A stretch of 64,000 nt of DNA. Source: Paraburkholderia edwinii (GTDB lineage Bacteria > Pseudomonadota > Gammaproteobacteria > Burkholderiales > Burkholderiaceae). The position numbers and the translations under genes are program-made. Every line of letters begins with the position of its first letter. Position 1 is the stretch's first letter. The stretch lies in contig NZ_CP080096.1 of the NCBI RefSeq assembly GCF_019428685.1, forward strand, positions 558,001-622,000, read 5' to 3'. This document shows positions 23,539-62,876 of this stretch, piece by piece. The notes beneath the pieces are model-generated. The model saw only the letters and a program-made list of their open reading frames with translations, did not search any database and was not told where the DNA came from.

Positions 23539-23922
23539 ATGAGCTTTGATGAGACCGTTCGAGGGTTCACGCTGATCGAAGTGCTGATTGCGCTGGCGAT
23601 TGTGGCGATCGCGATGGGCGCGGTGCTGCGGGCGATTGGATCGCTTGCGGCGGATACGGATTCGGCGAGGGCGCATCTGCTTGCGCTGTGGAGCGCGGAT
23701 AACGCGTTGAGCGAATTGCGTATTACGTCGGCCTGGCCAGAGCCGGGGCAAAAGACGTTTGCTTGTCCGCAAGGGGCTTATCGGTTTGTTTGCCGGCAGG
23801 TGGTGACGGTGATGCCGAGTCCGATTGTCAGGCAGGTGACGGTGAGTGTTTATCCGTCGGCTGCGAGTCGGGGGGTGTTGGCTGAGGTTGTGACGGTGGT
23901 GCAGGATGAGGCGCGCCACTAG
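23539..23922 (+). CDS. gspI: Type II secretion minor pseudopilin GspI
   Basis: This 127-residue prepilin has a short leader ending VRG followed by FTLIEVLIALAIVAIAMGAVL, the hydrophobic N-terminal helix with Glu5 required for pseudopilus assembly. The remainder (NALSELRITSAWPEPGQ) is typical of GspI. The ATG at 23539 gives the usual short leader; an upstream ATG at 23461 would add a Gly-rich stretch. Its stop overlaps the gspJ start by 17 bases. The other gsp genes lie 23-39 kb away, which is unusual; GspI normally sits between gspH and gspJ. Confidence 0.9.
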   Translation: MSFDETVRGFTLIEVLIALAIVAIAMGAVLRAIGSLAADTDSARAHLLALWSADNALSELRITSAWPEPGQKTFACPQGAYRFVCRQVVTVMPSPIVRQVTVSVYPSAASRGVLAEVVTVVQDEARH

Positions 23923-24571
23923 GCCACGGCGTGCCCTTGCACGCGCATCCGGCTTCACGCTGATCGAAATGCTCGTGGCGATCGCGCTGCTCGCGGTGAT
24001 TGCCGTCCTTGCATGGCGAGGACTCGATGCGACCGTGCGCGGACGTGACGATGTGACTTCCAATCTTGCTGAAACGCGGCTCCTGGGCCGTTACTTTTCC
24101 CAATTGCAGTTCGACATGATCAACCTCGTCACGCCGGATGAGGTGTTTGGTCCGCCGTTGAGGATTCGGCGCGATGAGCTTGTGCTGATCCGGCACCTGG
24201 GTGTCGGTAATTCGCCTACACAGGTGCAGGTGGTACGGTATCAGCTGAAAGGTCATCAGTTGATGCGCAGTGCGTCGCAGCCGTTGTCGTCGCTGTCGCA
24301 GCTTGCGGATGCGCTGCATCATATGGATGACTTTGCGAGCGTGGTGGCGAGCGATCGGGCGCGCGGGATGACGCTTGCGGTGTGGGTGCCGCAGGTGGGG
24401 TGGACGGGTGATCAGAAGGTGCTGGACAGCACCTATGCGCGATTTCTCCAGGTACATGGCGTGAGCAACGGTACGTCGGTCGGTTTGCCGCTGCCGCGCG
24501 GCATCCGCTTTACGGTGACGATGGGTGCGTCTCCCGTCGAGTTCGTCCGCACGCTTCCGATCGGCCAGTAG
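23906..24571 (+). CDS. gspJ: Type II secretion minor pseudopilin GspJ
   Basis: This 221-residue prepilin has the leader MRRATRPRRALARASG and then FTLIEMLVAIALLAVIAVLAWRGLD, with the conserved Glu5. The later sequence VLAWRGLDATVRGRDDV and FVRTLPIGQ fits GspJ, a pseudopilus-tip component that assembles with GspI and GspK. It overlaps gspI by 17 bases, so the two are translationally coupled. gspK, its direct partner, is found 37 kb away on the other strand. Confidence 0.9.
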   Translation: MRRATRPRRALARASGFTLIEMLVAIALLAVIAVLAWRGLDATVRGRDDVTSNLAETRLLGRYFSQLQFDMINLVTPDEVFGPPLRIRRDELVLIRHLGVGNSPTQVQVVRYQLKGHQLMRSASQPLSSLSQLADALHHMDDFASVVASDRARGMTLAVWVPQVGWTGDQKVLDSTYARFLQVHGVSNGTSVGLPLPRGIRFTVTMGASPVEFVRTLPIGQ

Positions 24572-24784
24572 CGGCGGCGACACTCTGTAGCCGCGGCGAA
24601 CCATTGGGTCAATGGTCCAATCCGCAGTCGCGCGTTGTCCAATCACCCGTGTCAATTTTGCCTTCTGTCATATCGCATCGAAACCGCCCACAACGTTGAG
24701 CGGTGCGCTCGCATAGCGGCTAAAAAATGCTTTAAAGCAATGTGACAGCAAGTCTCCATGCGCCTCTCCAATGCGCGGCAAAAT

Positions 24785-61828: not shown

Positions 61829-61868
61829 GTTAGCGAGTACGGGGTTAGGTTCGGGGTTACGTCCGGGC

Positions 61869-62876
61869 TTACGTAGTCACGCGGTGCACCCAGATGACCG
61901 AGGTCCATGCGAAATCGCCGATGCCGTAGCGCGCGATCAGCGTATCGATACGCGTGTTGATACGCGCTGAGTGGATCCGGCAGTGCACGATGAAATAGCC
62001 GCTGTTCACGTCGATCAGCGAGCCTTCCGCGAGCGTGGCGGTTGATTGTTGAGGGGCCAGCAGCACCGGGATTTCGGCGGTGCTGACAAAGTAAGCGGTG
62101 TTGCGACGCTCGACGATCGAGTGCGCCTGAGCCGCGGTGATGCCGGGAATCGCGGCCACGATCGTTTGTTCGGGCGCCGTGTTGACGTTGATTCTTGTGA
62201 TGTCGGGCAGCACTGTGACGAACGGTGTCAACGCCCGGACGGTGCCTGCGTCGTAACCTGGAATGCGACGCAGGTCCGCCGCCGAGACGAGTTGCAGCGG
62301 CCAGTTCTCGGTGCCGGTGCCGTCGCGCAGCGAACGCAGGATGTAGTCGGCGGTGGGCTGCGCAAGAGCCGGGTCGAGCGACAGCGTGGTAAGCAGCCGG
62401 TTATACGCGGCAAGACCGCTCGCGTCGATGCGCCACGGCTGCGAGGGCGCGGGCCGCGAAACGAGGTCGGCGAGATTGAACTTCGCTTGCGCGTCTTCGA
62501 CCTGGCCGGAGATCCATGCGTTCGCGAGTTCGCCGTTGACCGCGATCGCATCGCGCGGCAGCAGATTCGACAGCTGCACATCGTTGACGGGCGCCGACCA
62601 TTCCTGGCCGATAAATGCCACGTTTGACGTCGAGCTTTGCGCACGCAGCGTTGCGCGCGCCCATTCGACGGCGGCGCGTTCGACCCACATCGTTTCGGTC
62701 GCAAGACGCTGGTTCTCGACGTCGCGTGTTGCGACGCGCTGGCGCCATAGCACGCTTGCCGCAAGCGTTGCTGCGAGCGCGACCACGAGCAGCACCGTGA
62801 CGATGGCGATGCCGCGTTCGCGGTTACGTGATTGCTTATGCGTGCGCCTGGGAACGACTGGGGTCAATCGATGCAT
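61869..62876 (-). CDS. gspK: Type II secretion minor pseudopilin GspK
   Basis: This 335-residue protein caps the pseudopilus. The leader ends RERG and the mature helix is IAIVTVLLVVALAATLAASVLW, with Thr at position 5 instead of Glu, as expected for GspK. Large domain segments are VNDVQLSNLLPRDAIAVNGELANAWISGQVEDAQAKFNLADLV and LRRIPGYDAGTVRALTPFVTVLPDITRINVNTAPEQTI. ATG 62876 follows GGAGC. It is on the minus strand, far from gspI and gspJ with which it forms the tip complex. Confidence 0.92.
   Translation of the reverse strand: MHRLTPVVPRRTHKQSRNRERGIAIVTVLLVVALAATLAASVLWRQRVATRDVENQRLATETMWVERAAVEWARATLRAQSSTSNVAFIGQEWSAPVNDVQLSNLLPRDAIAVNGELANAWISGQVEDAQAKFNLADLVSRPAPSQPWRIDASGLAAYNRLLTTLSLDPALAQPTADYILRSLRDGTGTENWPLQLVSAADLRRIPGYDAGTVRALTPFVTVLPDITRINVNTAPEQTIVAAIPGITAAQAHSIVERRNTAYFVSTAEIPVLLAPQQSTATLAEGSLIDVNSGYFIVHCRIHSARINTRIDTLIARYGIGDFAWTSVIWVHRVTT

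Follow-up and report, generated by a model that had tools for sequence, protein, structure and literature searches.

A PUMA3-type island and its conservation

The window analysed here is a stretch of 64,000 nucleotides from Paraburkholderia edwinii (positions 558001-622000 of contig C2, in an 8.3-Mb genome of two contigs), and it contains an island in which the signalling genes vreA, vreI and vreR stand together with genes for a type II secretion system (T2SS), a giant TpsA-type exoprotein, a DING-family protein, three glycosyltransferase-like proteins (GT1-3) and a PhdA counterpart (Table 1). A sequence-only reading of the window had proposed that this is the Burkholderiaceae counterpart of the PUMA3 locus of Pseudomonas aeruginosa, and our analysis supports it. 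Most components match the P. aeruginosa PA7 locus and the published PAO1 map, which comprises vreAIR, hxc, lapA, pdtA, phdA, pdtB, exbB2-exbD2-tonB4 and PA0696-0700 (PMC7035377). In addition, the VreI+VreR tree places the Pseudomonas PUMA3 sequences as sister to the islands together with the loci G255b and G260 (support 100/99, midpoint root; G numbers denote genomes, G000 being that of the window). The linked counterparts of pdtA, pdtB, exbB2-exbD2-tonB4 and PA0696-0699 are all found in the genome of the window.

Pfam and NCBIfam confirmed the genes that had been named from the letters, i.e., gspI, gspJ, gspD-gspE-gspF, gspG, gspH, gspL, gspM and gspK, the STN+TonB protein, the extracytoplasmic function (ECF) sigma factor and the FecR protein, and, together with PDB sequence matches, the DING-like and giant proteins. 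The VreA product has the STN and TonB C-terminal domains and lacks a beta-barrel (Pfam), as is proper to a VreA-type protein. The gspC gene is also real, but it lies on the minus strand; the plus-strand open reading frame at that place (52372-52953) has no Pfam match and was rejected as gspC. The window has every T2SS subunit gene from gspC to gspM. The three glycosyltransferase-like genes, with TPR repeats and a GT9-like C-terminus in Pfam, are indeed an addition relative to Pseudomonas.

A VreA profile matched 37 of 160 genomes at the family level (E <= 1e-10). Many of these matches were partial and located inside long receptor-like frames, and window-type VreA (>280 bits) was found in nine of the 160, own genome counted. 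Within the genus, where the limit was set at E <= 1e-25, the profile hit 16 of 144 genomes. The nearest named relatives of VreA are those of Paraburkholderia solisilvae and P. humisilvae (81% each). The island comparison rests on the DNA stretches fetched around window-type VreA loci, which include 22 T2SS-type islands, 15 from Paraburkholderia, 4 from Burkholderia and 3 from Trinickia; two of them, G199 and G155, are truncated because their contigs end there. The visible gene order is that of the window in 21 of the 22 islands (in G199 it is visible only from gspE on): gspI-gspJ, GT1-3, the giant gene, the DING gene on the minus strand, the T2SS block, vreAIR, a gene of the 59075 type, phdA and gspK. 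The deviating island is G155, where F-C-G-H-L-M precede I-J-GT1 on its contig. Since the same genes in the same order recur across three genera, the island is more than a chance assembly, and the window shows its common arrangement and no one-off rearrangement. The description of the island as rearranged therefore holds for the displaced tpsB block treated below and not for the window.

Some vreAIR loci have no T2SS. The G260 locus and the second G255 locus carry vreAIR and the giant gene, and neither T2SS, glycosyltransferase nor DING genes were found in their fetched stretches. At G255:C3:1380000-1440000 there are three successive vreAIR+giant sets accompanied by a tpsB-exbD-tonB block, again with no T2SS in the fetched stretches; this row of sets recalls R. 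palustris and Janthinobacterium, for which repeated clusters have been reported (PMC2729926). In the Trinickia genomes G122 and G106, the VreA match extends across one in-frame TAA, the vreI and vreR matches being near full-length; VreA has been reported to be dispensable for VreI activity in P. aeruginosa (PMC7035377). Outside the island, the window encodes a 1,841-residue kinase/AAA/GAF/histidine-kinase protein (1378-6903) and an autotransporter with pertactin-like domains (7065-11246).

Table 1. Features of the island and the evidence for them (positions within the window; PWM, position weight matrix).
Feature	Position	Strand	Evidence
gspI, minor pseudopilin, island copy	23461..23922	+	Pfam T2SSI 64.5 bits, N_methyl
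gspJ, minor pseudopilin, island copy	23906..24571	+	N_methyl; position; 35% to housekeeping GspJ
Motif before GT1, AAATGGTCCGTAAC + pho-like direct repeat	24781..24814	+	GT1 PWM 52.3
GT1, TPR + GT9-like	24834..27134	+	Pfam TPR; Glyco_transf_9 22.6 bits (cut-off 22)
GT2, TPR + GT9-like	27224..29521	+	Pfam TPR; Glyco_transf_9 21.7 bits, slightly below cut-off 22
GT3, TPR + GT9-like	29546..31810	+	Pfam TPR; Glyco_transf_9 24 bits
Motif copy before giant gene	31887..31920	+	GT1 PWM 10.2
Giant TpsA-type exoprotein, PdtA counterpart	31973..44674	+	TIGR01901; DUF3739; PDB matches of TPS region; similarity to PA7 PdtA
DING-family phosphate-binding/phosphatase-like protein, LapA counterpart	44946..46235	-	PDB sequence match; PA7 similarity
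Motif copy before DING gene	46339..46372	-	DING PWM 51.0; GT1 PWM 3.6
Motif copy before gspD	46805..46838	+	GT1 PWM 15.6, second best in window; gspD sites unused in PWM
gspD secretin, island copy, start approximate	46856..49654	+	TIGR02517 622 bits; absent from 12 islands
gspE ATPase, island copy	49651..51153	+	Pfam T2SSE; tree; 92% to own housekeeping GspE
gspF platform protein	51155..52372	+	Pfam T2SSF; tree; found for 22/22 islands
gspC	52456..53004	-	Pfam T2SSC E 5.4e-6, 26.7 bits, slightly below cut-off 27
gspG major pseudopilin	53042..53554	+	Pfam T2SSG; absent from 12 islands
gspH minor pseudopilin	53529..54143	+	Pfam GspH, N_methyl
gspL	54244..55878	+	Pfam GspL_C, T2SSL; absent from 12 islands
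gspM, start approximate	55860..56354	+	Pfam T2SSM; absent from 12 islands
pho-box-like site before vreA	56482..56503	+	Equivalent site picked in 22/22 islands
vreA-like	56602..57357	+	Pfam STN + TonB_2, no other domain; about 251 aa
vreI-like ECF sigma factor	57363..57917	+	Pfam Sigma70_r2/r4_2; VreI+VreR tree
vreR-like FecR anti-sigma regulator	57929..58933	+	Pfam FecR, DUF4880
Conserved protein, function unassigned	59075..59959	-	No Pfam/NCBIfam family; match at same place in 22/22 islands
phdA counterpart, Tn5/IS4-like transposase body + C-terminal Phd/YefM	60137..61828	+	Pfam, NCBIfam, Foldseek
gspK minor pseudopilin	61869..62927	-	Pfam T2SSK
Rearrangement breakpoint	62928..63183	.	tpsB-exbBD block next after gspK in 19/22 islands

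Descent and parallel reduction of the type II secretion genes

The island had been called Hxc-like, and a GspD/GspE tree was proposed as a check. We have compared its T2SS with the housekeeping clusters of 21 island genomes and with the T2SS of P. aeruginosa PA7 and P. protegens FD6, both those linked to PUMA3 (Hxc) and the others, using sequences pulled by similarity to the window's genes, a procedure that favours close relatives. In the GspF tree, the 22 island sequences form one clade (100/99) inside a Burkholderiaceae clade shared with the housekeeping sequences (99/95); with midpoint rooting, Hxc is sister to this Burkholderiaceae clade (100/100) and the other Pseudomonas T2SS fall outside. 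The GspE tree also joins island and housekeeping Burkholderiaceae sequences and leaves Hxc outside (98/96, the bootstrap not being fully settled). A grouping of island and Hxc sequences is rejected by approximately unbiased (AU) tests (p 0.003 for GspE and 0.012 for GspF). Quick trees with an Xcp outgroup separate island+housekeeping from Hxc+Xcp with support of 100 for D, 93 for G, 87 for K and 80 for I. GspC and GspM trees contain no Pseudomonas sequences. The check thus went against an Hxc descent: GspD and GspE group with the housekeeping Burkholderiaceae T2SS and not with HxcQ/HxcR, and both the trees and the AU tests speak against orthology to Hxc. This grouping was the first half of the condition that had been set in advance for a refutation. 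On this phylogenetic evidence, the island T2SS is a lineage-specific duplicate of the Burkholderiaceae housekeeping Gsp.

The subunits have not diverged equally. Compared with the housekeeping copy of the same genome, E is 92%, F 88% and G 84% identical, D is 56%, and the tip subunits reach 56% (H), 47% (I), 35% (J) and 35% (K), gspI being 74-86% identical among islands. The six island GspE sequences are not one clade (forced monophyly is rejected, AU p 0.027), and the island GspE of G246 pairs with its own housekeeping GspE (98/94).

The island T2SS is often incomplete. D, E, F, C, G, H, L and M are all seen in six islands (G000, G231, G220, G246, G255 and G130); G199 shows E to M up to its contig limit, G075 and G201 are without E, and G155 shows F, C, G, H, L and M, its D/E position falling at the contig end. 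The other 12 of the 22 islands have no D, E, G, L or M and still have F, H, I, J and K, with gspC also kept in three of them (G011, G148 and G126). The gap between the DING gene and gspF is 319-663 bp in these 12, compared with 3.1-4.9 kb in the three fuller islands measured. All 12 genomes have exactly one T2SS-type GspE (86-92% identity; the G206 match is partial, and G122 and G106 each have one further GspE match at 50-51%), and 10 of the 12 have one T2SS-type GspD. The reduced islands fall in four groups on the VreI+VreR tree, on which the presence of G+L+M needs at least three changes. In the five reduced-island pairs tested, the retained genes (F, H, I, J and K) have dN/dS values between 0 and 0.31, which shows that they are under purifying selection.

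Since several relatives have pared their T2SS down to the same few parts, these parts may plug into the housekeeping machine, and a tip module (H, I, J, and K) with F that is able to use this machine appears as the simplest account of the sequence data. We give a probability of about 0.6 to this reading, in which the island is a form of PUMA3 with a housekeeping-derived T2SS whose special tip and F would dock on the housekeeping machine. Its most serious competitor, which we consider unlikely, is that the reduced sets are dying remnants and that only the complete islands make a working second T2SS, with an Hxc-like use for DING/LapA-type proteins. The islands do form a graded series in its favour, from complete sets to sets without E, then to F/C/H only and F/H only, beside I, J and K. 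Nevertheless, decay should be random and relaxed, and what is observed is the same five genes kept in 12 of 12 reduced islands, in four tree groups and with low dN/dS in the five pairs tested.

Several observations count against the docking of a tip module with F. The retained GspF is about as close to its housekeeping copy as the lost GspE is, so that an idea based on the tip alone leaves the retention of GspF unexplained. No gspC match was found in 9 of the 12 reduced islands, and the dN/dS of gspC in two reduced pairs is 0.14 and 0.65; because the gene is often missing and one pair gives 0.65, selection acting through GspC is no constant feature. Two reduced-island genomes carry a second GspD-like secretin (59%) of equal similarity beside a single T2SS-type GspE (G206:C3:1036091 and G160:C4:413932). 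Regarding descent, GspH supports the housekeeping side with only 57 (Xcp outgroup), and the GspJ and GspL trees, which have no Xcp sequences and whose root cannot be placed, carry no weight; the descent claim holds without J and L, because D, E, F, G, K and I carry it.

The low GspH value would also suit a further explanation, that an Hxc system was inherited with PUMA3 and that its core was made housekeeping-like by gene conversion. The GspE of G246 does reveal conversion or recruitment, and the Pseudomonas PUMA3 sequences are the nearest VreI+VreR relatives outside the islands and two T2SS-less loci. However, conversion of the core does not account for the diverged subunits, which also fall with the housekeeping system when Xcp is the outgroup (100 for D, 87 for K, and 80 for I, J and L having no Xcp rows), and we find this explanation distinctly improbable.

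Giant exoprotein, putative regulatory sites and PhdA

The giant protein has 4,233 residues counted from the first ATG, the start being uncertain. Its two-partner secretion (TPS) domain (TIGR01901, residues 205-285) scores 59.5 bits against a cut-off of 29.1, and DUF3739, for which a literature search found no paper, lies near the C-terminus (Pfam). In the PDB, the TPS region resembles EtpA, a heme/hemopexin-binding protein and an adhesin chain (2odl, HMW1), and the protein shares 26-29% identity with the N-terminus of PA7 PdtA. TpsB had been described as absent, and this is true inside the window only: a PdtB-like TpsB is encoded on the same replicon (C2:51525-53057), and its synteny in relatives suggests that it is the partner of the giant protein. 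It belongs to a collinear block at C2:42.4-56.1 kb, located about 525 kb from the near end of the island and about 565 kb from gspK, with genes for DUF4915, ShlB/POTRA TpsB, ExbB, ExbD, TonB, Porin_5, YbjN and PpiC proteins. The ExbB of this block (G000:C2:49665-51503; L128:11666-13504, minus strand) has DUF2341 and laminin-G-like domains before its proton-channel domain.

In 19 of the 22 islands, a block with TpsB, ExbD and TonB gives the first matches after gspK, and in the remaining three a PdtB-like TpsB is found elsewhere in the genome. The displaced block has the opposite strand to the island arrangement, which would fit one inversion ending just past gspK. An assembly error is unlikely; the split is common to relatives, since G231 and G199 show the same gspK/63184-type junction and have tpsB on another contig. 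The gene after gspK in the window (63184-63939) encodes a protein with no Pfam/NCBIfam match; the displaced block has a relative of it at its far end, so that related genes flank both places. That the T2SS itself exports the giant protein, as the location of the giant gene between T2SS genes and without an adjacent tpsB might suggest, is very improbable and we reject it, given the TPS domain, the presence of a PdtB-like TpsB in all 22 cases, 19 times next to the island, and the giant gene in most of the fetched T2SS-less vreAIR loci.

GT1-3 are present in 21 of the 22 islands (G199 being cut) and were not seen in the fetched T2SS-less loci. Their family is very large (7,998 of 7,999 scored candidates matched), the Pfam results for GT1 and GT2 cover the best 25 families, and the C-terminus has no PDB sequence match below E 0.1. 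By analogy with HMW1C/EtpC, they would likely glycosylate the giant protein.

The best PDB match of the DING-like protein is a DING protein (E 8.6e-41). DING-type chains, some of them named alkaline phosphatase or phosphate-binding protein, range from E 8.6e-41 to 2.2e-32, and PstS gives 1.3e-6 or worse, so that the protein is closer to the DING family than to classical PstS. The exact N-terminal DING letters are absent from it. It shares 35% identity with the PA7 protein in the lapA position; LapA and LapB are stated to be Hxc substrates in P. aeruginosa (PMC9769906). The gene occurs in one to three tandem copies in G130, G206, G148, G075 and others.

In P. aeruginosa, pho boxes and a joint control by PhoB and VreI have been reported (PMC4971064). 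Comparison of the islands, and only this comparison, revealed a pho-like direct repeat located ~90-150 bp upstream of vreA in 22 of 22 islands, whose second half is TGTCAC in 20 islands, the other two having TGTCAT and CGTCAT. A longer motif, in which a pho-like direct repeat comes after AAATGGTCCGTAAC, lies before GT1 and recurs before gspD, the giant gene and the DING gene (Table 1). The GT1 PWM was built from 14 sites of other islands, with neither the window nor its two nearest relatives among them. Ten Markov shuffles gave a best score of 6.0, and one unrelated place in the window scores 6.3. The motif is present at >=19 of 23 positions in 15 of 21 GT1 upstream regions, and in the six without it the anchor apparently lies inside the neighbouring glycosyltransferase gene. 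DING upstream regions have it at >=14 positions in 17 of 21 cases and those of the giant gene at >=16 positions in 8 of 19. With a DING PWM (16 sites from other islands), the top seven places in the window are DING (51.0), GT1 (15.0), gspK (7.1, opposite strand), gspD, gspK again, gspI and the giant gene, of which only DING and GT1 exceed the null maximum of 13.1.

This promoter conservation may point to a control of the island units by low phosphate through PhoB and VreI, a proposal that is weakened by the following results. The vreA site is the best candidate picked in each upstream region and scores 17.2 versus 16.0 for the best of 10 shuffles, so that its weight rests on conservation, and a plain textbook pho-box scan of the whole window gave no excess over shuffles. 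The DING copy is inside the null range when scored with the GT1 PWM, and no motif copy scores above the null in the DNA fetched for the displaced tpsB block. The motif finds no convincing match in the pdtA/phdA upstream DNA of PA7, where the two regions share a different motif.

The PhdA counterpart had gone unnoticed in the sequence-only reading. The first ~460 residues of PhdA resemble IS4-family transposases (NF033592, 55 bits, below the cut-off of 115), and its C-terminus matches Pfam PhdYeFM (E 1.6e-5, 25 bits, below the cut-off of 29.8); many of its relatives are named Phd/YefM antitoxins by their sources. The best Foldseek match of the model (mean pLDDT 71) is the Tn5 transposase (E 4.9e-6, TM-score 0.35). 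The transposase body does not retain an intact IS4 catalytic signature (D-D-E with Y..E): D, D, Y and E occur together in six of six transposases and in none of 19 Phd-fused sequences, where Y is lost in all 19. In four of these 19, D, D and E remain aligned without Y, and the PhdA of the window has H, D, S and A. In the PA7 PhdA (201 residues), a weak N-terminal Phd match (19 bits, below cut-off) precedes a DUF772 transposase domain (44.6 bits against a cut-off of 23.1). Judged from this different domain order, and from an alignment of both proteins limited to 37 residues of the Phd part, the locus carries two differently built Phd-transposase chimeras, one in PA7 and one in Burkholderiaceae. 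The stretches fetched for 11 T2SS-less vreAIR loci and for the P. protegens locus gave no PhdA-like match. G246:C59 has an extra PhdA-like match (58%) between gspM and vreA, beside the usual copy. Among the papers listed in literature searches, none described a chimera of this kind, which does not prove absence.

Proposed mode of action and comparison with known systems

The island represents the PUMA3 phosphate-starvation locus in the form that it takes in Burkholderia, Paraburkholderia and Trinickia. Low phosphate would bring PhoB to the pho box before vreA, and VreI, once freed from VreR, would switch on the remaining island units. The giant TpsA would be exported by its own TpsB, encoded here in the block that has moved ~525 kb, and the three TPR-glycosyltransferases would probably glycosylate it in the cytoplasm. 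As for the T2SS, the special part of the duplicated set would be the tip with F: the tip has diverged from the housekeeping copy, to which E, F and G have stayed close. The core would be interchangeable with the housekeeping machine, because of the high identities of E, F and G, because the island GspE sequences are not one clade and because the GspE of G246 pairs with its housekeeping homologue. Island copies of the core would for that reason be dispensable, and the secretin, the ATPase, the major pseudopilin and L/M have in fact been lost repeatedly. The remaining parts would dock on the housekeeping machine and aim it at the island substrates, most likely DING/LapA-type proteins.

A bolder proposal, to which we concede slightly less than an even chance, is that the tip with F is a phosphate-controlled plug-in that commandeers the housekeeping secretin, ATPase, major pseudopilin and L/M for new substrates, and that the PhdA slot was filled independently in P. 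aeruginosa and Burkholderiaceae by different dead-transposase/Phd chimeras, a new type of DNA-binding regulator.

The choice of substrates by type II secretion machines is a long-standing open question. Strains whose island T2SS is down to F and the minor pseudopilins, next to substrates that are likely dedicated to them, would be natural experiments on T2SS specificity: if loss of the island tip blocks the island substrates alone, the tip carries specificity. In addition, the island extends the phosphate-controlled PUMA3 biology from an opportunistic pathogen to soil and plant bacteria, for which its motif is a concrete candidate for the VreI/PhoB regulon.

Hybrid secretion systems have a precedent in the accessory GspC-D pair XphA/XqhA of P. 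aeruginosa, where extra T2SS parts encoded outside the main cluster form a functional hybrid with the main T2SS (PMC6567927). There C+D are swapped, whereas in the present case F and the tip H-I-J-K would be, and these are encoded in an island that brings regulators and substrates of its own. Among the papers listed in searches for hybrid or tip-swapped T2SS, only this pair came up, which does not prove absence. The giant protein and GT1-3 recall HMW1ABC and EtpBAC, in which a large TpsA also has adjoining glycosyltransferase genes, in line with the likeness of the island TPS domain to EtpA and chain 2odl. The island differs in having three putative TPR+GT9-like enzymes with no convincing PDB sequence match.

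The locus is a conserved variant of the known PUMA3, and its Burkholderiaceae counterpart is known in outline, since Llamas et al. (2009) reported a PUMA3 homologue for B. vietnamiensis (PMC2729926); the passages of that paper compared here give no subunit list, T2SS origin, glycosyltransferases, PhdA or promoters. With the PUMA3 of P. aeruginosa (PA0674-PA0699) the island has in common vreAIR, a T2SS, a DING/LapA-type protein, a giant TpsA and PhdA, as well as TpsB, ExbB-ExbD-TonB, Porin_5 (PA0696-like), YbjN (PA0698-like) and PpiC (PA0699-like). It differs from it by a T2SS of housekeeping-Gsp descent, which 12 of the 22 islands have in incomplete form, by the addition of a DUF4915 protein and three glycosyltransferases, a differently built PhdA, a different gene order and, in the genome of the window, the displacement of the tpsB block. 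Within this comparison, what is new to us is that the T2SS derives from the housekeeping system and has been pared down repeatedly, that the tpsB block is displaced, that PhdA is a chimera and that the island promoters share a motif.

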